Shown here piece after piece: positions 16,801 through 27,260 of a DNA stretch of 39,584 bases. Position numbers and translations under genes: made by a program. The stretch is from Terriglobia bacterium (GTDB lineage Bacteria; Acidobacteriota; Terriglobia; Acidiferrales; UBA7541): NCBI GenBank assembly GCA_020073705.1, contig JAIQES010000043.1, positions 1 through 39,584 on the forward strand. The letters run 5' to 3'. The notes under the pieces were generated by a model. The model searched no databases, had not been told where the DNA came from, and worked only from the letters and a program-made list of their open reading frames with translations. Position 1 is the stretch's first letter, and the number at the start of each line of letters is the position of its first letter.

Positions 16801-18825
16801 ATGTCTCTGGGAACACGTCTACAATTTGAGCAGCCACCGGGCCACCGATCCGACGGAAGGTTTCTGGCGTTAACCGAGCGTCTGCACGATGCCATCGACC
16901 GCGGCGTGGATTACCTTCTCTCGCTGCAGGCGTCGGAAGGGTATTGGCTAGGGGAACTTGAATCGGACACGACGCTCGAATCGGACTACATCTTCTACCT
17001 GAACGTAATCGGCAAAGCGCATCCAGAGCGCGTCGCTAAGCTCGCAAACTACGTTCGACGGCGCCAACTCGAAGACGGTGGCTGGAACATTTACTATGGC
17101 GGGCCGTCGGAGTTGAACGCGACAGTGAAGGCGTATGTCGCATTGCGGCTGGCGGGCGATTCGCCGGATTCGGAACACCTGCGGCGCGCTTGCCGGCGGG
17201 TTCACGAACTCGGTGGTCTTGAGGCGTCGAATTCTTACACGCGTTTGTATCTTGCGCTGGTGGGGGCTGTCGTCTGGGACATGGTGCCCGCGGTCCCGCC
17301 GGAGATAATGCTCCTCCCGAATTGGTTCGCGATCAATATCTATGCGATGTCATCGTGGACGCGCGGGATTGTGATTCCTCTTACGATCCTCTACGCGCAC
17401 AAGCCGCGCTTTGCTGTGCCGGGGGGGATTTCCGTGGACGCATTGTACCGGGATCCTTCACGGAAGGCCCTCGCATTTGATTGGGACAAACAACTCTTCA
17501 GCTGGCGGAATTTCTTTCTTGCTATCGACCGTGGCTTCAAGCTGTATGAGCGGGTGCCGTGGAAGCCATTGCGGCAGCGCGCGCTACGCCAGGCGCAGCA
17601 GTGGCTGCTCGATCATATCGAGCGCAGCGAGGGGTTGGCCGCGATTTATCCCGCCATGATGAACGCCATTTTTGCCCTGCTGGCCCTGGGGCATTCGCCC
17701 GACGATCCGCTGACTGCGCGAGAGATCGGTGAGTTTTCGCGATTCGAGATTGAGGAAGGCGACACGATCCGGGTGCAGCCGTGTGTTTCGCCGGTCTGGG
17801 ACACGGCGATCGCAATGGTTGCGCTGGAGGAAGCGGGACTGCCGCCCGATCATCCGGTGTTGATCGAAGCGGCGGGCTGGCTACTGAAGAAACAGATTGT
17901 TGGTCCGGGCGACTGGATGGTGAAGACTCCTGGCGTTATGCCCGGTGGATGGGCGTTTGAATTCCGCAATGATTTCTATCCCGACGTTGACGACACTGCG
18001 TTTGTGCTGATGGCGCTGCAGCGGGTGGATTATCCGGATAAGGTGCGCATGGAAGCTGCCACCCGGCATGGACTTACTTGGCTGCTTGCGATGCAGAACG
18101 ATGACGGCGGCTGGGGCGCGTTTGATCACAACAACGACCACCAATTCCTGTGTCAGATTCCATTTGCCGATCACAACGCGATGATTGATCCTTCGACTGC
18201 GGACGTGACCGCCCGCGTCGTCGAATGTCTGGGCCGGTATGGCTGGCCTGCAACTCATCCCGTGATCGAGCGGGCCGTGAAATTCCTGCTGAAGGATCAG
18301 ACGGATGAAGGACCATGGTTCGGACGCTGGGGTGTGAATTATGTGTATGGGACCAGCGGCGTGCTCCGTGCTCTCGAGACGGTCGCGCTGACCGCCCGGG
18401 AATACTGCCAGCGAGCAGTGCAGTGGCTGCGTGCAGTGCAGAATTCCGACGGCGGATTTGGTGAATCGATCGCGTCCTATTACGACCCGGCGCTCAAGGG
18501 CAGGGGTGTGAGCACCGCATCCCAAACCGCGTGGGGTCTGATCGGGTTGTTGGCGGCAGGGGAAACCGACGATCCAGCGGTAGCGAGCGCTGTAACGCAC
18601 TTGGTCGAACAGCAACAATCCGACGGTTCGTGGGCTGAGAATGAATTTACCGGCACGGGGTTCCCGTGCGTGTTTTACCTGAAGTATCACCTGTACCGGA
18701 ACTATTTTCCGTTGTACGCGCTGGCGCGATATCGCAATATGACACAGGGAAAATCTCAGTTCTGTGCATTGCAGGTGAAGCCCGGGGAGTTTGAGCGGCT
18801 AGAGGCATCCCAGGTGAATGGATGA
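16801..18825 (+). CDS. shc: Squalene-hopene cyclase
   Basis: A 674-residue monotopic membrane enzyme that cyclises squalene to hopene/hopanol in one step. The protonating DxDD motif is intact as Asp395-Val-Asp397-Asp398 in YPDVDDTAFVLM. Several QW repeats that stabilise the alpha-barrels are visible: LQASEGYWLGEL, LEDGGWNIYY, QNDDGGWGAFDHNN, QNSDGGFGE and QQSDGSWAENEF. The C-terminal GTGFPCVFYLKYHLYRNYFP block is characteristic of bacterial SHCs (also called HpnF). The length is standard. It is the first gene of the hopanoid operon, and its TGA overlaps the ATG of hpnH (ATGA). The squalene substrate would come from the HpnC-HpnD and HpnE products encoded downstream. Confidence 0.97.
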   Translation: MSLGTRLQFEQPPGHRSDGRFLALTERLHDAIDRGVDYLLSLQASEGYWLGELESDTTLESDYIFYLNVIGKAHPERVAKLANYVRRRQLEDGGWNIYYGGPSELNATVKAYVALRLAGDSPDSEHLRRACRRVHELGGLEASNSYTRLYLALVGAVVWDMVPAVPPEIMLLPNWFAINIYAMSSWTRGIVIPLTILYAHKPRFAVPGGISVDALYRDPSRKALAFDWDKQLFSWRNFFLAIDRGFKLYERVPWKPLRQRALRQAQQWLLDHIERSEGLAAIYPAMMNAIFALLALGHSPDDPLTAREIGEFSRFEIEEGDTIRVQPCVSPVWDTAIAMVALEEAGLPPDHPVLIEAAGWLLKKQIVGPGDWMVKTPGVMPGGWAFEFRNDFYPDVDDTAFVLMALQRVDYPDKVRMEAATRHGLTWLLAMQNDDGGWGAFDHNNDHQFLCQIPFADHNAMIDPSTADVTARVVECLGRYGWPATHPVIERAVKFLLKDQTDEGPWFGRWGVNYVYGTSGVLRALETVALTAREYCQRAVQWLRAVQNSDGGFGESIASYYDPALKGRGVSTASQTAWGLIGLLAAGETDDPAVASAVTHLVEQQQSDGSWAENEFTGTGFPCVFYLKYHLYRNYFPLYALARYRNMTQGKSQFCALQVKPGEFERLEASQVNG

Positions 18826-19958
18826 GATTTCCGCTGAAGATGACCGCGAATTTGGCGCGCTATGTCGCGAGCCAGCGCCTGCGCGGCTCGGAAAAGTTTC
18901 CGATGGTTCTGATGCTGGAGCCATTGCACGCCTGCAACCTGACGTGTACGGGATGCGGCCGGATCCGGGAGTACAAGTCCACGATCAGCGAGATGCTGAC
19001 CGTAGAGCAGTGCGTGGCCGCGTCGGATGAATGCGGCGCGCCGGTTGTCTCCATCTGTGGTGGCGAGCCGATGATTTATCCCGAGATTGGCCGGCTGACG
19101 CGCGAGATTCTGGCGCACGGGCGGCACATCATCTTGTGCACGAATGGGATGTTTATCCGCAAGCGCCTGCACGAGTTCAAGCCTACGTCCAGTTTCTTCT
19201 TTAACGTACACCTGGACGGGTTGGAGCGGACGCACGACCTGTGCGTTGAAAAAGATGGCGTATTCCGCGAGGCCATCGAAGGCATCAAGGCTGCCAAGGC
19301 CGCCGGATTCTTTGTCAGTTCGAATACGACGGTGTACAAAGAGACGGACGTCAACGAGATTGCCGAGCTTTACGCATACTTGGACACGCTGGGCGTGGAC
19401 GGATACATGCTCTCGCCGGCGTACAGCTACTCGGCGGTACAGACACAGGACGTCTTCATGTCGCGCGCGGACATTCGTGAGAAATTCCGCGAAGCGGTTG
19501 CACTGCTGGATAAGCACAACCTGATGGTCTCCCCGATTTATCTCGATTTCTTGAGGGGAGAGCGCGAGCTGGACTGCACGGCATGGGGAACGCCGACATT
19601 CAACCCGCGCGGGTGGAAAGGGCCGTGCTACGTAATCACAGACAATCACTACAACTCTTACCGGGAGATGATCGATAAGACGCCGTGGGAAAAATACGGT
19701 CCGGGCAACGACCCGCGTTGCGCGGACTGCATGATGCACGTTGGGTTTGAGACAACGCCAGTGCTGGGCGTGAAGCGCCAGTTGGGTGACGCCTGGACTA
19801 TGCTGAAATGGCAGTTTTCCGGGCGCATGGGTGGCAACGGGAACAAGGACGCAGGCAACCGGCCCACCAACGGCCACACAGGCAGTGGCACGCTGATGCC
19901 TCCGCCGCCGCAGAATGCGGAATTGGTCACCTCGGACGGCAGACTGCGGGTGCTATGA
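18822..19958 (+). CDS. hpnH: Hopanoid radical-SAM protein HpnH (adenosylhopane synthase)
   Basis: A 378-residue radical-SAM enzyme. Known HpnH proteins join a 5'-deoxyadenosyl group to the diploptene side chain, giving adenosylhopane, the first step of C35 hopanoid synthesis. The iron-sulfur cluster motif CX3CX2C is Cys38, Cys42, Cys45 (LHACNLTCTGCGRI), followed by the SAM-contacting CGGEP block. Further conserved parts are FFFNVHLDGLERTHD and the C-terminal cysteines near GPCYVITDNHYNSYREM and DPRCADCMMH. The last 40 or so residues are a Gly/Asn/Pro-rich tail of low conservation. Its start overlaps the shc stop and its stop overlaps the hpnA start, both by ATGA, indicating tight translational coupling. 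Confidence 0.96.
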   Translation: MRFPLKMTANLARYVASQRLRGSEKFPMVLMLEPLHACNLTCTGCGRIREYKSTISEMLTVEQCVAASDECGAPVVSICGGEPMIYPEIGRLTREILAHGRHIILCTNGMFIRKRLHEFKPTSSFFFNVHLDGLERTHDLCVEKDGVFREAIEGIKAAKAAGFFVSSNTTVYKETDVNEIAELYAYLDTLGVDGYMLSPAYSYSAVQTQDVFMSRADIREKFREAVALLDKHNLMVSPIYLDFLRGERELDCTAWGTPTFNPRGWKGPCYVITDNHYNSYREMIDKTPWEKYGPGNDPRCADCMMHVGFETTPVLGVKRQLGDAWTMLKWQFSGRMGGNGNKDAGNRPTNGHTGSGTLMPPPPQNAELVTSDGRLRVL

Positions 19959-20980
19959 AAACGCTGGTCACCGGGGCAACGGGCTTCCTGGGGAGTCACG
20001 TGGCGCGACAACTTGCCCAGCGCGGCGAACGCGTGCGCGTTCTGGTGCGTGCATCGAGCGATACGCGGGCGCTCGAAGGATTCGAGGCGGAACGCTTCAC
20101 CGGAGATTTGCGGGATGCGGCGTCGCTGGATCGTGCCGTAGCAGGCGTCACCATTGTATTTCACGTCGCTGCGGATTATCGCCTCTGGGCGCGCGACACG
20201 CGCGAGATCTACGAATCGAATGTGACCGGCACGCGGAATTTGCTCGAAGCCGCGCGACGCGCGGGAGTCGAACGGTTTGTGTACACCAGCACGGTCGCAA
20301 CGATTGCAGTTCCGCGCAAAAGTGGATTGCCGGATGAAGCGACGCAGTCGTTTCTGGCTGAGATGATCGGCCATTACAAGCGCTCGAAGTTCGAAGCGGA
20401 GCAGAGCGCGATGCGCGCTGCCGGGACGGGCCTGCCGGTTGTGATCGTCAATCCGACGACGCCGGTGGGACCCGGAGACTGGAAACCAACGCCGACGGGA
20501 AAAATTATCGTCGATTTTCTAAACGGGCGTATGCCGGGCTACGTGGATACCGGTTTGAATTTTGTTCCGGTGGAAGATTGCGCGTCAGGACATCTGCTCG
20601 CCGCCGAGCGCGGACGCGTGGGAGAGCGATACATTTTGGGCGGCCGCAATCTGACGCTCAAAGAAGTGCTCGACATGCTTGCCGGGATCAGCGGGCGGCG
20701 CGCGCCGCAGTGGAAAGTTCCGCATGCCTTGGCCTATGCTGCGGGATGTGTGGATACAGCCGTTTCCAGGCTGTTGGGCCGTGAACCGCAGATCCCGCTC
20801 GAAGGTGTGCGAATGGCTCGGCACAAGATGTTTGTGGATGCATCGAAGGCCGGGCGTGAGCTTGGCTTCACGCATGGGCCAATCGAAGCAGCACTGGAAC
20901 GCGCGGTTGGGTGGTACGAAGCAAACGGGTATATCGCCGCACGGCGCGCACAGGCGGTTGCGCGTGCGCATGCGGCATGA
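19955..20980 (+). CDS. hpnA: Hopanoid-associated NAD(P)-dependent sugar epimerase/reductase HpnA
   Basis: A 341-residue extended short-chain dehydrogenase/reductase. The Rossmann motif is at the very N-terminus (LVTGATGFLGSHVA), with the active-site serine region YTSTVATIAVP and a downstream HYKRSKFEAE segment whose Tyr-x3-Lys (Y-K-R-S-K) is the catalytic pair. HpnA occurs in most hopanoid clusters but its reaction has not been established; a role in modifying the ribose-derived side chain or a sugar headgroup is usually assumed. The start is the ATG at 19955, overlapping the hpnH stop; the same frame is open further upstream inside hpnH but lacks family sequence. Confidence 0.93.
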   Translation: MKTLVTGATGFLGSHVARQLAQRGERVRVLVRASSDTRALEGFEAERFTGDLRDAASLDRAVAGVTIVFHVAADYRLWARDTREIYESNVTGTRNLLEAARRAGVERFVYTSTVATIAVPRKSGLPDEATQSFLAEMIGHYKRSKFEAEQSAMRAAGTGLPVVIVNPTTPVGPGDWKPTPTGKIIVDFLNGRMPGYVDTGLNFVPVEDCASGHLLAAERGRVGERYILGGRNLTLKEVLDMLAGISGRRAPQWKVPHALAYAAGCVDTAVSRLLGREPQIPLEGVRMARHKMFVDASKAGRELGFTHGPIEAALERAVGWYEANGYIAARRAQAVARAHAA

Positions 20981-20988
20981 GGGACCCG

Positions 20989-21741
20989 ATGAAAATTCTG
21001 GTGACATTCGCGCTGAAGGCAGAGTTCGCGCCATGGGAGCGGCGCCGGGGATTCCGCCGTCTAGCGGGCGATTGGCCGTATTTTGAAGCGGAGTTCGGCG
21101 GTACGCGTATCCGCGCGGTTCTGACGGGCATGGGACGGGCCCATGCCCTCGAGGCAGTACGCCGCGTGCTGCCTGAACGCCCCGACATCTGCATCTCAAC
21201 GGGGCTGGCGGGTGCTCTGCGAAGCGGGTATCGCCCCGGTGACATCTTGGCCGCCCGTCTGGTCAGTGAAGTCGGTGAACCCGTGGCCGTGGCAAGTCAT
21301 CGCGAGCTGCTGGCTGCTGCGGTGGGTTGCGGCGCGCGGCAAATTGAACGGTTCGCGACCTCCCGGATGCTGGTTGCGCGCGCGGAAGAGAAGCGCCATC
21401 TTGGAAGCGAGGCGGAAGCAGTCGAAATGGAAAGCTACACGATCCTGGCGGAAGCGGCCCGGTATGGAGTGCCGGCGGTGGCCGTTCGAGCCATCAGCGA
21501 CACTGTGGATTTCGACATGCCTTATGATTTTGAACGCGCGCGCGATGCGCGCGGCGAGATCCATCTCCGTGATATCATCACACAAGCGCTGCGCCGCCCT
21601 TCCGGTTTGCCTGCGTTGCTCGCACTCGGGCGCGATTACCGCCTCGCTGCCCGACGACTCGCTGATTTTCTGGATGCTTATACGGGAACGCTCGGTGACC
21701 GGCTGATTCCCATCGAGCCGGATCTGGTGGCCGCCCTATGA
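20989..21741 (+). CDS. hpnG: Hopanoid-associated nucleosidase/phosphorylase HpnG
   Basis: About 250 residues, of the purine nucleoside phosphorylase / MTA-SAH nucleosidase fold. HpnG releases adenine from adenosylhopane to yield ribosylhopane or its phosphate. Family signatures are ALKAEFAPWERR near the start, LTGMGRAHALEAVRRVL, ISTGLAGALRSGYRPGDIL, the purine- and ribose-contacting EAVEMESYTILAEA, and VAVRAISDTVDFDMPYDF with the catalytic Asp. I choose the ATG at 20989, which has GAGGG five bases upstream; an in-frame ATG at 20977 overlaps the hpnA stop (ATGA) and would add four residues. The gene's own stop overlaps the next ATG (ATGA). Confidence 0.94.
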   Translation: MKILVTFALKAEFAPWERRRGFRRLAGDWPYFEAEFGGTRIRAVLTGMGRAHALEAVRRVLPERPDICISTGLAGALRSGYRPGDILAARLVSEVGEPVAVASHRELLAAAVGCGARQIERFATSRMLVARAEEKRHLGSEAEAVEMESYTILAEAARYGVPAVAVRAISDTVDFDMPYDFERARDARGEIHLRDIITQALRRPSGLPALLALGRDYRLAARRLADFLDAYTGTLGDRLIPIEPDLVAAL

Positions 21742-22841
21742 ACCAGTCTGGAACCATATTCGAAACTTCATTTGCGGCACCTCCCGTGCCTGCGATAATG
21801 CGTGCAGCTGTTTACCGCGGCAAGGGACGCGTCGTCGTGGAAGACGTTCCGGTGCCTCAGATTACGGCAGGCGAGGTGCTGATTCGCGTAGCGGCGTGCG
21901 GAATTTGCGGCACCGATATCAAAAAGATAGATCATGGTTTTGTCTCGGCGCCACAGATTTTTGGGCATGAGGTTGCCGGGACCGTCGTTGCCGTGGGCTC
22001 GGGAGTCACAAAGTGGAAGCCCGGCGACCGCGTCATGAGTTTTCATCACATCCCCTGCGGCGCGTGCTTTTACTGCGAGCGGCGCCTCTATTCGCAGTGT
22101 GCGGGCTACAAGAAGGTGGGCTTGACTGCGGGTTTTGATCCCAACGGCGGGGGATTTGCCCAGTACGTGCGGGCGATGCCGTGGGTCGTTCAGCGTGGAA
22201 TGCAGGCGATTCCAAAGGAAATCAGTTTCGAAGAAGCCACATTCATCGAGCCCGTCAATACCTGCATTAAGGCTGTGGAAAAAGCCCGGGTTGCCGCCGG
22301 AGAAACTGTTCTAATCATGGGACAGGGTCCCATTGGCCTGCTTCTCATGATGCTGTCGAAACTTGCAGGTGCGGTGGTCATCGGCAGCGACCCGATGCCG
22401 GAACGGCGCGCGAAAAGCTTGTCGCTTGGTGCTGATTTGGCCCTTGATCCAAGCCAGGGCCGGCTCGCGGATGAAATCCGCTTGCGTACGGAGGGTCGCG
22501 GCGCCGACGCGGTGCTTGTGGCCGTGCCGCACCCAGCGGCGCTGACCGATGCGCTGGCGATCGCCAGGCCTGGCGGTCGTGTTCTTCTATTTGCGCAGAA
22601 TGATCCGAAGATGCGCATCGAGTTTCCGGCGGCGGCAGTCGGCGTCGAAGAAAAGGAGATTTTGGGCAGCTACAGTGCTGCGGTCGACCGTCAGGAAGAG
22701 TCGGCACGGCTGATATTTTCACGCCAATTGCCGGTACGCAAACTGATTTCCCATCATTTTTCTTTGGAGGACATGAATCGGGCCCTTCAGTTGGCGGCTC
22801 ATCCCGAAGGCGATTCTTTGAAAGTGGTGATACAGCCTTGA
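21738..22841 (+). CDS. Zinc-dependent MDR alcohol/polyol dehydrogenase, first of two in the hopanoid operon
   Basis: A 367-residue medium-chain dehydrogenase/reductase. The catalytic-zinc ligands fit Cys57 (CGICGTD) and His77-Glu78 (FGHEVAG), and the structural zinc site has four cysteines (107, 110, 113, 121 in PCGACFYCERRLYSQC). The NAD(P)-binding turn is IMGQGPIGLL. The overall pattern is of the sorbitol / threonine / galactitol dehydrogenase branch, enzymes that interconvert sugar carbonyls and polyols. ATG 21738 overlaps the hpnG stop; an internal ATG at 21798 begins the conserved MRAAVYRGKG segment and is an alternative. The position right after the enzyme that makes ribosylhopane suggests, by inference, action on the hopanoid side chain. 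Substrate and direction are unproven. Confidence 0.85.
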   Translation: MNQSGTIFETSFAAPPVPAIMRAAVYRGKGRVVVEDVPVPQITAGEVLIRVAACGICGTDIKKIDHGFVSAPQIFGHEVAGTVVAVGSGVTKWKPGDRVMSFHHIPCGACFYCERRLYSQCAGYKKVGLTAGFDPNGGGFAQYVRAMPWVVQRGMQAIPKEISFEEATFIEPVNTCIKAVEKARVAAGETVLIMGQGPIGLLLMMLSKLAGAVVIGSDPMPERRAKSLSLGADLALDPSQGRLADEIRLRTEGRGADAVLVAVPHPAALTDALAIARPGGRVLLFAQNDPKMRIEFPAAAVGVEEKEILGSYSAAVDRQEESARLIFSRQLPVRKLISHHFSLEDMNRALQLAAHPEGDSLKVVIQP

Positions 22842-22876
22842 TAACAAGGAAAAATAACGGGCAACACAACGGTCAT

Positions 22877-23911
22877 ATGAACGCCGCGGTTCTATACGGA
22901 AGCGAGAACCTGAGAATTGAGAGGGTGGATATTCCCAGGCTCGCACCGGATGACGCGCTGATTCGCGTAAAAGTGGCGCTGACCTGCGGCACCGATCTGA
23001 AAGTCTGGAAGCGGGGGTACCACGCCCGAATGATCACGCCACCGGCCATTTTCGGGCATGAACTTTCCGGCATCGTCGAAATGCTGGGCGCCGAAGTGAA
23101 CGGCGGGTTAAAAGTCGGCGCGCGTGTCGTTCCATCGAACTCGGCCCCTTGCAACGTCTGCCTGTTCTGCCGCAAGGGGCAGAGTAACCTGTGTGAGGAC
23201 ATGTTGTTCAACAACGGAGCCTACGCCGAGTATATCCGCATTCCCGGCCGCATCGTCCGCCAGAATATGCTGGTGATTCCCGAACACGTTTCGTTCCAGG
23301 ATGCGGCGATGGTGGAACCGCTGGCGTGCGTGCTGCGCGGAATTCATGAGACCGGCATCGAAGCGGGCGACACGACTGTTGTGATCGGTTGTGGCCCGAT
23401 CGGATTGAAATTTATCCGCATCCTCTCCGGCCGCGGCGTGAATGTCATCGCGCTCGGGAAGCGTCCAAACCAAATCCGGGCGGCGGAGCGGTTCGGCGCG
23501 CGCGCGGCGTTCATCGCGCCGGATTTGACGGACCCTGCAAGGACTGTCCGTCAACTGACCGAAGGTGGCTGCGGCGCCGATTCCGTGATTGAGGCAGTCG
23601 GCACGCCGCAGACGTGGGAATGGGCGCTTCAGATGGTGCGCCGCGGCGGCACCGTAAACCTGTTCGGTGGCTGCCCTCGCGGCTCGCTGGTGCAGGTGGA
23701 CTCGAACGCCCTTCATTATTCGGAGATCACGATCAAATCCACGTTCCACCATACACCGCATTTCATCCGGGAAGCGCTCGAAGCCGTGGCTCGGGGGGAA
23801 ATCCGTTCGAGCGATTTTGTGAATGCTGAGATCCCGCTCTCCGATCTGCCGAAGATGTTTGAACACATGAAGTATCGCAACGGCGAAATGAAGGTCGCGG
23901 TGATTCCTTAG
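22877..23911 (+). CDS. Zinc-dependent MDR alcohol/polyol dehydrogenase, second of two in the hopanoid operon
   Basis: About 344 residues, another MDR enzyme but clearly different in sequence from its neighbour. It has LTCGTDLKVWKRGYH with the catalytic cysteine, IFGHELSG, the four-cysteine structural zinc site in PCNVCLFCRKGQSNLC, and the Rossmann turn VIGCGPIGLKF. I chose ATG 22877, where the conserved MNAAVLYGSENLRIE begins. A TTG at 22838, overlapping the upstream stop (TTGA), would add 13 residues and keep the coupling pattern of the operon. A divergent pair of paralogous dehydrogenases suggests two oxidoreductive steps or a heteromeric enzyme, but that is inference. A 63-base gap separates it from the hpnCD fusion. 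Confidence 0.85.
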   Translation: MNAAVLYGSENLRIERVDIPRLAPDDALIRVKVALTCGTDLKVWKRGYHARMITPPAIFGHELSGIVEMLGAEVNGGLKVGARVVPSNSAPCNVCLFCRKGQSNLCEDMLFNNGAYAEYIRIPGRIVRQNMLVIPEHVSFQDAAMVEPLACVLRGIHETGIEAGDTTVVIGCGPIGLKFIRILSGRGVNVIALGKRPNQIRAAERFGARAAFIAPDLTDPARTVRQLTEGGCGADSVIEAVGTPQTWEWALQMVRRGGTVNLFGGCPRGSLVQVDSNALHYSEITIKSTFHHTPHFIREALEAVARGEIRSSDFVNAEIPLSDLPKMFEHMKYRNGEMKVAVIP

Positions 23912-23974: not shown

Positions 23975-25909
23975 ATGCAGACACCTGCTGAACTCGAAAT
24001 CGCCCAGGGCATGCCTCTGCCGGGCTGCTCGGTCACCGAGGCCCAGCGGTACACGCGCAGGCTCGCCACACACCACTACGAAAACTTCAACGTGGCCTCG
24101 TGGTTGCTCCCCAGGCGCCTGCGACAGCATTTTTACAATTTGTACGCCTACTGCCGCTGGGCCGACGACCTGGGAGATGAAGTTGCCGATCCGTCGCGCG
24201 CTTTGGAGTTGCTGGACGGCTGGGATCAGGAATTGCGGGACTGTTATGCGGGCCATCCGTCGCATCCGGTATTTGTCGCGCTGCGTCAGACGATCCTCGA
24301 GTGCGACATTCCTATCGAGCCATTTGCGGATCTGCTCGTGGCATTCCGCCAGGACCAGACCGTGCGCCGTTATCCGACCTGGAATGGCGTGCTGGGCTAT
24401 TGCCATTATTCGGCGAATCCGGTCGGGCGCCTCGTGCTCTATCTTTGCGGCTATCGCGACTCCGGGCGCCACCAGCTTTCGGACGCGACGTGCACGGCGT
24501 TGCAGTTGGCGAATTTCTGGCAGGACGTCGGACGGGACCTGGACAGGGGCCGCATCTACATTCCGCTCGAAGCGCTGGCCGCGCACGGCCTCACCGAGGA
24601 CGACATCGTGGCGCGCCGCTTCGATGAGCGCTACGTTTCGTTAATGAAGGAATTAATTGCCCGGACGCGGGAATTGTTCGAAGAGGGTTTGCCGCTGGCT
24701 GGGCGTGTCGATTCTGCGTTGCGCGTGGACATTGAAATGTTCAGCCGCGGCGGACTCGCTGTGCTGGACTCTATCGAGGCCATTGGCTACAACACGCTGC
24801 GGCACAGGCCGTCGATCCCGAAGTCAAAACAGTTGCAGTTGTTGGCGCGCGCGCTCTGTCAGCGCCTGTTTGCGCAAGGCTCGATGGCAACTATGGTGGC
24901 GGCTCCTGGGCCGGGACGCCCGGCGATTGTTTCCAATGCGTCTCCGTTGCCGGGCACTGGAAAGGCCACGCAGGGCATTCCCGGCGAAGTCGCGCGGTCC
25001 TATGCGGAATGCAGGCGTGTGGCGCGCGATGCGGCCAGCAACTTTTATTACGCGTTTTTCATGCTCCCGCAGGCCAAGCGCGACGCGCTCTGCGCGCTCT
25101 ACGCGTTCATGCGGCTGGTGGATGACGTCTCGGACACGGCAGGGGACGCAGCGGACAAACAGCGCGGATTGGCGCGCTGGCGGGCTGCGCTGGACGCGGC
25201 TGTTGCCGGCAATGTTTCGGACCATCCGATCCTTCCGGCATTTGCAGATACGATGGAACGCTTCCGTATCCCGCCGCGCTATTTCCACGACCTGATTTCC
25301 GGGGCGGAAATGGATTTGACCGTCGGCCATTACGCCACGTTCGAACGCCTGCGCGAGTATTGCTACCGCGTTGCGGGAACCGTCGGCCTGACCTGCTTGC
25401 AAGTGTTCGGATTTGACGACCCGCATGCGCCGGACCTGGCGGAAAAGCTCGGGATCGCGTTTCAACTGACGAACATTCTGCGTGACGTGCCGAAAGACTA
25501 TGAGATGGGCCGCGTCTATCTTCCGCAGGAGGACCTTGAGCGGTTCGGTATCCGCGCGGAGGAACTTGCGCGCGGGCCGCTGACGCCCGCGCTGCGTGAT
25601 CTGTTCGCGTTCGAGGCCGGACGCGCCTGGGGTTTTTATCGCGAAGGCGTGGAACTGATCCCGCGCGTGCATCCCGATGCGCGCGCCGCGCTCTGGGCGC
25701 TGGTGCGGATCTATAGCAGTCTGCTGCCGCGCATCGAATCGCGCGGCTACGATGTTTTCTCCGGGCGCGTGCGGCTGAGCACGGCCGAAAAGACAGGGAT
25801 CCTCCTGCGCGCGCGTCTCGGCTGGTACTCCCAACACAATGTCCTCGAAGAGCGTGATCGTGATCGGCGGCGGCCTGGCGGGACTCTCCTCGGCCGTCGC
25901 GCTGGCTGA
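23975..25909 (+). CDS. hpnCD: HpnC-HpnD fusion: bifunctional presqualene-diphosphate / hydroxysqualene synthase
   Basis: One 644-residue frame with two trans-isoprenyl diphosphate synthase domains. Domain 1 (about residues 20-300) is HpnC-like, with Asp-rich motifs WADDLGDE (64-69) and FWQDVGRDLDRGRIYIP (D184, D188). Domain 2 (about residues 335-615) is HpnD-like, with LVDDVSDTAG (383-387) and NILRDVPKDYEMGRVYLP (D504, D508). A Gly/Pro/Ala-rich linker at about 305-335 joins them. In known pathways HpnD condenses two farnesyl diphosphates to presqualene diphosphate and HpnC converts that to hydroxysqualene, usually as separate proteins. The last 23 residues overlap the hpnE start in another frame and look like non-family tail. 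The ribosome-binding site before ATG 23975 is weak. Confidence 0.93.
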   Translation: MQTPAELEIAQGMPLPGCSVTEAQRYTRRLATHHYENFNVASWLLPRRLRQHFYNLYAYCRWADDLGDEVADPSRALELLDGWDQELRDCYAGHPSHPVFVALRQTILECDIPIEPFADLLVAFRQDQTVRRYPTWNGVLGYCHYSANPVGRLVLYLCGYRDSGRHQLSDATCTALQLANFWQDVGRDLDRGRIYIPLEALAAHGLTEDDIVARRFDERYVSLMKELIARTRELFEEGLPLAGRVDSALRVDIEMFSRGGLAVLDSIEAIGYNTLRHRPSIPKSKQLQLLARALCQRLFAQGSMATMVAAPGPGRPAIVSNASPLPGTGKATQGIPGEVARSYAECRRVARDAASNFYYAFFMLPQAKRDALCALYAFMRLVDDVSDTAGDAADKQRGLARWRAALDAAVAGNVSDHPILPAFADTMERFRIPPRYFHDLISGAEMDLTVGHYATFERLREYCYRVAGTVGLTCLQVFGFDDPHAPDLAEKLGIAFQLTNILRDVPKDYEMGRVYLPQEDLERFGIRAEELARGPLTPALRDLFAFEAGRAWGFYREGVELIPRVHPDARAALWALVRIYSSLLPRIESRGYDVFSGRVRLSTAEKTGILLRARLGWYSQHNVLEERDRDRRRPGGTLLGRRAG

Positions 25910-27260
25910 AGCTGGCTACCGCATCCGTTTGCTCGAAAAGCGGCCCCACCTGGGTGGCCGGGCGGCGTCCTACGTGCTGCCCGGAGGAGAGCATATAGAC
26001 AATTGCCAGCACGTCACGCTGGGCTGTTGCACCAACCTCGAGGATTTCTATCGCCGGGTGGGCGCGGCGGAGAAAATTCGCTCCTATGACCGGTTGTTGT
26101 TCGCCGGGCCAGATGGACGGCGCGGCGTCATAAAATCCTCTCTGCTACCTCCCCCCTTGCATATGGCGCCTTCGTTTGCACGGTTTCCATTGCTCGGTTG
26201 GGCCGACAAACGTGCCATCGCGCGCGCTCTGCTGACAATTGCGCGCAGCGGCGGGCGCCCGGCGGACCTCTCGAACGATTCGGGCGGCATCACGATGCTC
26301 GCATGGCTCCAGCGGCACCGCCAGACCGAACGCGCGATCCGCCGCTTCTGGGGAGTCATCCTGGTCAGCGCGCTCAATGAAGAGCTGGACCGTACCGACG
26401 CGCGCTACGGTATCGACGTTTTCTGGAAAGCGTTCCTTTCGACCCGTAGAGGGTACCGCGTCGGCATTCCGTGCGTACCGCTCGGAGAGCTCTACGACGG
26501 CTGCAGGGAAGCGATTGAACGCCGAAGCGGGGAAGTCCTGCTGCGCGCTGGCGTGCGCGGATTTCTGGTGACGGGTAACCGCGTCGAAGGCGTCGAGAAA
26601 GACAATGGCTCGGTGGAAGCTGCGGACTATTATCTTGCCGCTGTACCTCAAGACGTTTTGCCCGAACTGCTGCCTGCACATGTGGTGGAACGTGAGGCGG
26701 TGTTTTCGAACCTGCGCAACTTGCGAACCTCACCGATCACGGGTGTTCATCTCTGGTTCGATAGAGTCGTGATGGACGAGCCTTTCCTGACGCTGCTCGA
26801 CAGCACGACGCAGTGGATATTCAACAAGACGCAACTCTACGGCGGCGTCATGGAAAACGGCGGTCAATACCTCCAGCTCGTGATCAGCGCATCGTACAGT
26901 CTGGTGCCGCGCCCGCGCCAGGAGATCATCGCGCTTTGTCTGGACGAACTGCGTGAAGTGCTTCCCGCCATTCGCGGCGCCACGCTGATCAAGGGAACGG
27001 TCGTCAAGGAAACGTCCGCGACGTTCTCTCCTGCGTCTGGTTCGGAGCAATGGCGCCCCTCACAAAAAAGTCCGCTCGCGAATCTATTTCTCGCGGGGGA
27101 CTGGACTGCCACCGGCTGGCCATCGACAATGGAAGGCGCGGTACGCAGCGGATATCTTGCCGCCGAAGCGATCCTCTCCGATGCCGGCGCGCCGCAGAAG
27201 TTCCTGCGGCCCGGCCTGTCCGCGGAAGGTTTGGCCCGGCTTTGGGCCCGCGAATCCTGA
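25839..27260 (+). CDS. hpnE: Hydroxysqualene dehydroxylase HpnE
   Basis: A 473-residue FAD-dependent amine-oxidase-fold protein. HpnE reduces hydroxysqualene to squalene, completing the HpnCDE route. The N-terminal dinucleotide-binding motif SVIVIGGGLAGLSSAVALAE is followed by an RLLEKRPHLGGRAASY segment typical of phytoene desaturase-like flavoproteins; the C-terminal FAD contact region is NLFLAGDWTATGWPSTMEGA. The ATG at 25839 begins directly before the nucleotide-binding strand and is the only sensible start, so the 71-base overlap with hpnCD is real unless there is an assembly error. It is the last hopanoid enzyme gene of the operon in this window. Confidence 0.94.
   Translation: MSSKSVIVIGGGLAGLSSAVALAEAGYRIRLLEKRPHLGGRAASYVLPGGEHIDNCQHVTLGCCTNLEDFYRRVGAAEKIRSYDRLLFAGPDGRRGVIKSSLLPPPLHMAPSFARFPLLGWADKRAIARALLTIARSGGRPADLSNDSGGITMLAWLQRHRQTERAIRRFWGVILVSALNEELDRTDARYGIDVFWKAFLSTRRGYRVGIPCVPLGELYDGCREAIERRSGEVLLRAGVRGFLVTGNRVEGVEKDNGSVEAADYYLAAVPQDVLPELLPAHVVEREAVFSNLRNLRTSPITGVHLWFDRVVMDEPFLTLLDSTTQWIFNKTQLYGGVMENGGQYLQLVISASYSLVPRPRQEIIALCLDELREVLPAIRGATLIKGTVVKETSATFSPASGSEQWRPSQKSPLANLFLAGDWTATGWPSTMEGAVRSGYLAAEAILSDAGAPQKFLRPGLSAEGLARLWARES

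Follow-up and report, generated by a model that had tools for sequence, protein, structure and literature searches.

Hopanoids are membrane lipids that leave a fossil record of ancient life, and most C35 hopanoid biomarkers derive from bacteriohopanetetrol (BHT). The present analysis concerns an acidobacterial hopanoid operon in a stretch of DNA of 39,584 nt, referred to as the window in the following (contig JAIQES010000043.1 of assembly GCA_020073705.1, from a Terriglobia bacterium of the phylum Acidobacteriota). Its gene order is shc, hpnH, hpnA, hpnG, MDR1, MDR2, fused hpnC-hpnD and hpnE, where MDR1 and MDR2 denote two members of the zinc-containing medium-chain dehydrogenase/reductase (MDR) superfamily. 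An earlier annotation of the window, here called the original prediction, had put both forward as candidates for the reductase that converts ribosylhopane to BHT. One part of this proposal, that the two act in the hopanoid pathway, finds good support in our analysis; the other, ribosylhopane as the substrate, is best kept as a proposal, for which MDR2 appears to be the better candidate.

That no enzyme has been assigned to this conversion, as the original prediction held, agrees with the open-licence literature, in which a paper from 2025 describes the step as not established (PMC12583986), although a recent assignment may exist elsewhere. A cell-free reduction in Methylobacterium organophilum is referred to there (Bodlenner 2015, as cited in PMC12583986). 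In acidobacterial hopanoid clusters, two unknown genes have been described, ug1 after hpnG and ug2 before hpnC (Sinninghe Damste et al. 2017; PMC5462960). Like MDR1, ug1 follows hpnA-hpnG, and ug2, which was described as encoding a ~350-amino-acid alcohol dehydrogenase that binds Zn, precedes hpnC-hpnD-hpnE; by position, MDR1 probably corresponds to ug1, and MDR2 probably to ug2. The same study reported a fused hpnCD, as found in the window, in SD2 genomes and lists Chloracidobacterium as a known BHT producer, but it gave ug1 and ug2 no function, did not treat them as a pair, and suggested HpnA for the ribosylhopane step. The acidobacterial gene context has thus been known since 2017; new here are its recurrence in a second phylum, a split in predicted cofactor type between the two dehydrogenases, and an asymmetry between them, in that MDR1 can be lost.

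The hopanoid operon and its two dehydrogenases

MDR1 (21738–22841, 367 amino acids) and MDR2 (22877–23911, 344 amino acids) are intact open reading frames on the forward strand, located between hpnG and hpnCD as originally described. Both contain the Pfam domains ADH_N and ADH_zinc_N (PF08240 and PF00107) above the gathering score. All four catalytic-zinc ligands (C57, H77, E78 and E171 in MDR1; C37, H61, E62 and E147 in MDR2) and all four structural-zinc cysteines (C107/110/113/121 and C92/95/98/106, respectively) are present, bearing out the claim of intact zinc sites. These ligands are invariant across the aligned hopanoid-linked relatives, and the conserved residues suggest that both proteins are zinc-dependent catalysts.

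Neither protein fits a named specific family, as judged from their best NCBIfam scores of 169 bits (MDR1) and 152 bits (MDR2) against cut-offs of at least 450 bits. The top family for MDR1 is L-threonine 3-dehydrogenase (TIGR00692), a protein of similar fold, which is also close for MDR2; scores of 169 and 145 bits, respectively, are far under its curated cut-off of 458 bits, so that the concern that the two might simply be threonine dehydrogenases is not borne out. Likewise, scyllo-inosose 3-dehydrogenase IolM (NF041097) ranks first for MDR2 (152 bits) and second for MDR1 (167 bits), again far under the cut-off of 450 bits. AlphaFold models of MDR1 and MDR2 (predicted local distance difference test scores of 91 and 88) have MDR proteins as their top structural matches, among them alcohol dehydrogenase, ketose reductase, threonine dehydrogenase and similar enzymes; at 20–32% identity, these matches leave the substrate unfixed. 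Among the PDB sequences matched by the MDR2 profile, an NADP(H)-dependent ketose reductase/sorbitol dehydrogenase (PDB 1e3j) ranks second with 190 bits, and Foldseek aligns it at 28% identity; it shares the MDR fold and acts on a sugar carbonyl. Its natural substrate is, however, a small soluble sugar, whereas the substrate proposed for MDR2 is a large lipid.

With 28% identity to each other, MDR1 and MDR2 are paralogs, as predicted, but only in the sense of a deep, ancient relationship. In a tree computed with a quick method, which leaves deep branches unresolved, their families form separate, old clades with matching subgroups, from which we conclude that the pair is old and co-inherited; together with the low identity, this rules out a recent duplication. 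The tree lends no support to the acidobacterial and Rokubacterial hopanoid-linked forms being each other's closest relatives.

The remaining genes of the operon lie on the same strand. They comprise shc, encoding squalene-hopene cyclase (16801–18825; TIGR01507, 781 bits, cut-off 431), hpnH for the radical-SAM adenosylhopane synthase (18822–19958; TIGR03470, 422 bits, cut-off 225), hpnA for a short-chain dehydrogenase/reductase (SDR) of the 'sugar epimerase' type (19955–20980; TIGR03466, 480 bits, cut-off 368), the hpnC-hpnD fusion for squalene formation, a single reading frame (23975–25909; TIGR03464, 549 bits, and TIGR03465, 468 bits), and hpnE for hydroxysqualene dehydroxylase (25839–27260; TIGR03467, 444 bits, cut-off 283). 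Their products all score well above the NCBIfam cut-offs. HpnG, a phosphorylase/nucleosidase (20977–21741, with an alternative start at 20989), falls below that of TIGR03468 (123 versus 187 bits), and we call it tentatively, from its best-hit family, its Pfam domain PNP_UDP_1 and its place between hpnA and MDR1, which is conserved in acidobacterial loci. The TIGR03468 model may miss acidobacterial HpnG. As for HpnH, Acidobacteriota harbor two types: the window protein has ~40% identity to the HpnH of most relatives in its class, and 60–71% to its counterparts in G188 and G095, two genomes that belong to families f29 and f51.

The ATGA overlaps that had been described from shc through MDR1 are present at 18822, 19955, 20977 and 21738. 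The MDR1 stop had also been proposed to overlap a TTG start of MDR2, at 22838, which did not hold up: since all six aligned homologs start at the residue that corresponds to ATG 22877, the TTG start is probably wrong and was dropped in favor of this more likely ATG, which leaves a gap of 35 nt after MDR1.

Clustering with hopanoid genes in Acidobacteriota and Rokubacteria

We searched a sample of 199 Acidobacteriota genomes from 68 families with an MDR1 profile, choosing the bit-score thresholds for the MDR proteins after having seen the gap in the scores. HpnH is above its cut-off in 50 of these genomes, and Shc likewise in 50. MDR1 reaches at least 481 bits in 29 genomes, the next score being 284, and 28 of the 29 carriers also possess HpnH (Fisher test, 2e-19, a value inflated by relatedness). 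Counted by family, all six MDR1 families fall within the 15 HpnH families of the 68 (p = 5e-5). The sole HpnH-negative carrier (G113) has hpnA, MDR1, MDR2, hpnD and shc in one cluster, and is therefore a hopanoid genome from which HpnH was not recovered. MDR1 lies within the hopanoid locus in 28 of the 29 carriers (the exception being G066). MDR2, at a threshold of at least 477 bits, is found in the same 29 genomes and in one more (G132), where neither HpnH nor Shc gave a match above cut-off.

When GTDB genomes were scanned for HpnH relatives, the same association emerged in a second phylum. A Rokubacterial contig carries the order hpnH-hpnG-hpnA-hpnD-MDR1-MDR2-ispH, which recurs in 28 loci that we read. 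Among 95 genomes of this phylum, 87 have HpnH above its cut-off and 82 have MDR2 at a score of at least 290 bits; by a hand count, the two share a contig in 53, nearly always within ~11 kb. The neighbors in the acidobacterial family f29 (ispH-hpnA-MDR1-MDR2-hpnD) resemble this Rokubacterial set. In both phyla, then, the dehydrogenases are encoded together with hpnH, hpnG and hpnA in hopanoid producers, which bears out the view that both genes belong to the pathway unit. We consider it highly probable that MDR1 and MDR2 are hopanoid pathway genes in these lineages.

Two explanations that would place the pair outside side-chain synthesis can be weighed against this distribution. A general role in carbonyl or sugar metabolism, with the operon reflecting mere co-regulation, would fit those planctomycete and acidobacterial genomes in which related pairs are flanked by unrelated genes, without hopanoid genes in the vicinity, but it is hardly plausible in view of the recurrent association with hopanoid genes in both phyla, the almost complete lack of close MDR1 in Acidobacteriota without HpnH, and the many distant relatives that differ at the cofactor loop or have no catalytic cysteine. 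It had also been considered that the families might occur equally without hpnG or hpnH; this is not the case in Acidobacteriota, but nearly so for the related pairs in Planctomycetota. Alternatively, the two might serve squalene or isoprenoid supply, given that hpnC or hpnD comes immediately after MDR2 in many loci of Acidobacteriota and that ispH neighbors the pair in Rokubacteria and in family f29. We judge this very improbable: HpnC, HpnD and HpnE already account for the path from farnesyl diphosphate to squalene, with no step missing, and the association of MDR1 is with hpnA and hpnG.

Predicted cofactor types and asymmetry of the pair

Where the second Rossmann strand ends, all 87 MDR1 sequences have Asp or Glu (D218 in the window), whereas 35 of 36 hopanoid-linked MDR2 sequences have Lys or Arg (in a GKR loop in the window). 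These conserved residues suggest an NAD type for MDR1 and an NADP type for MDR2. Many unlinked MDR2 relatives carry an Asp nearby in place of the basic residue, and 8 of 22 have no catalytic Cys. The cofactor of the M. organophilum reduction was reportedly NADPH.

The two genes also differ in their retention. In six Rokubacterial hopanoid loci with intact MDR2, MDR1 is either missing (L221, L225 and L293) or truncated (L289, L290 and L292); several of these were picked because MDR1 was unlisted and nearly all were found via MDR2, so that the fraction is biased, and assembly error may account for some of these draft genomes. Conversely, no locus with MDR1 but without MDR2 was seen in a small check of ten HpnH carriers without full MDR2. 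Four of these (L300–L303) could not be taken as MDR2 losses, since their contigs stop short of the position in question; in the remaining six, there is no MDR1 near hpnH either.

Given its NADP-type site and its retention where MDR1 is lost, MDR2 is the better candidate for the reductase, and MDR1, which the original prediction stressed for its place right behind hpnG, is the weaker choice. For MDR1 to act as the ribosylhopane reductase with NADH, leaving MDR2 to do something else, would be in keeping with its place directly after hpnG in most Acidobacteriota and with a catalytic zinc site that is intact in all sequences. We nevertheless regard this as improbable, since NADH, to which the invariably acidic residue points, is less usual than NADPH for a reductive step, and the six Rokubacterial operons dispense with an intact MDR1.

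Possible roles in side-chain synthesis

Our single best reading, albeit a tentative one, is that the pair acts on the C35 side chain, with MDR2 as an NADPH-dependent ribosylhopane reductase. HpnH adds 5'-deoxyadenosine to diploptene, and HpnG takes off adenine to yield ribosylhopane, the ribose of which opens to an aldehyde. MDR2, NADP(H)-type and related to ketose reductase/sorbitol dehydrogenase, would then most likely reduce this aldehyde to the primary alcohol of BHT, and MDR1 would be an NAD(H)-type accessory oxidoreductase on the same side chain, dispensable in some lineages. What our data show directly is the operon, its linkage and the co-occurrence; both the substrate and the direction of the reaction are inferred. 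If correct, the step from ribosylhopane to BHT would be done by different enzymes in different lineages; moreover, naming MDR2 as one gene in culturable acidobacteria makes the BHT-forming step directly testable.

Several aspects of the distribution weigh against assigning this reduction to MDR2. In our survey, which excludes alphaproteobacterial and cyanobacterial BHT producers, MDR2 is absent from the HpnH-positive Nitrospirota, Verrucomicrobiota and most Planctomycetota checked, and MDR1 from 22 of the 50 HpnH-positive Acidobacteriota. The MDR1-less group includes several families, among them f33, which keeps a distant MDR2 relative (~360 bits). No MDR gene was found beside hpnG in MDR1-less Acidobacteriota as a substitute reductase; the neighbors there are squalene-synthase-like or, as read from sequence starts, mevalonate-pathway-like genes. 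In family f29, the pair adjoins hpnA and hpnD, not hpnG or hpnH, except in G188, where hpnH is in the cluster. Related pairs also occur without HpnH in the acidobacterial families f35, f46 and f61. In Planctomycetota, MDR2 relatives are present in 30 of 199 genomes; HpnH accompanies them in 17 of these 30, compared with 52 of the other 169 (p = 0.011), which leaves 13 carriers of related pairs without HpnH, and no hopanoid gene was found near the pair in the 21 planctomycete loci first read. With so many HpnH carriers devoid of it, the pair cannot be the general ribosylhopane reductase and is lineage-specific at best; something else must reduce ribosylhopane in the other lineages.

The main rivals invoke HpnA or a stereochemical function of the two dehydrogenases. 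HpnA, already proposed for this step (PMC5462960), might perform ribosylhopane reduction or be needed for it, leaving another side-chain step to the MDR proteins. As it occurs in the hopanoid loci of both MDR1-less and MDR1-carrying Acidobacteriota as well as in Rokubacteria, it covers more producers than the pair; its homology to SDR 'sugar epimerases', however, suggests epimerase or ketone chemistry, and we regard this alternative as unlikely. The other rival has MDR1 oxidizing with NAD and MDR2 reducing with NADPH, so that the two alter the stereochemistry or oxidation state of side-chain hydroxyls and yield lineage-specific BHT isomers instead of carrying out the basic reduction. NAD-type and NADP-type partners that are encoded side by side and co-inherited, and that are absent from many HpnH-positive genomes, would suit such a tailoring step; the Rokubacterial operons with MDR2 but without intact MDR1 clash with an obligatory couple, and this explanation seems similarly unlikely to us. 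Its strict form, a matched redox couple that sets side-chain stereochemistry, such that the pair genotype would predict a lineage's BHT isomers, is more doubtful still. Rohmer degradation loses side-chain stereochemistry. Since the published acidobacterial work analyzed the side chain by this method, its lipid data are silent on the isomer question either way (PMC5462960).

Related pairs and neighboring genes in other lineages

Planctomycetota were considered as a third phylum with operon linkage, which is unsupported, as their pairs lie away from hopanoid genes. In the planctomycete G380 (L266, 7406–12710), the pair sits between two genes for pyruvate-dehydrogenase-like E1 subunits and adjoins a PIG-L deacetylase gene; in three planctomycetes (L276, L280 and L282), it lies beside genes for a type I phosphodiesterase and an M17 aminopeptidase (families checked in L282 only). 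Two public metagenome-assembled genomes titled Betaproteobacteria and Arcobacter (L112 and L146) have HpnH and MDR pairs of the acidobacterial type and appear to be mislabelled.

The pairs of the NC10-type subgroup of Methylomirabilota, which we take to be Methylomirabilis-like, were likewise rejected as a second hopanoid lineage, being remote from hopanoid genes and having an acidic cofactor loop and Asp for the catalytic Cys. The MDR2 relatives with these two features (L226–L229) may have a different, possibly zinc-less function. Finally, a gene for a PF04240 'carotenoid biosynthesis' membrane protein repeatedly adjoins hpnH in Methylomirabilota, even where the MDR pair is elsewhere (9264–10004 in L160; the same position in many of L218–L225, L286–L299, L305, L306, L308 and L309), and may be an unrecognized hopanoid gene.
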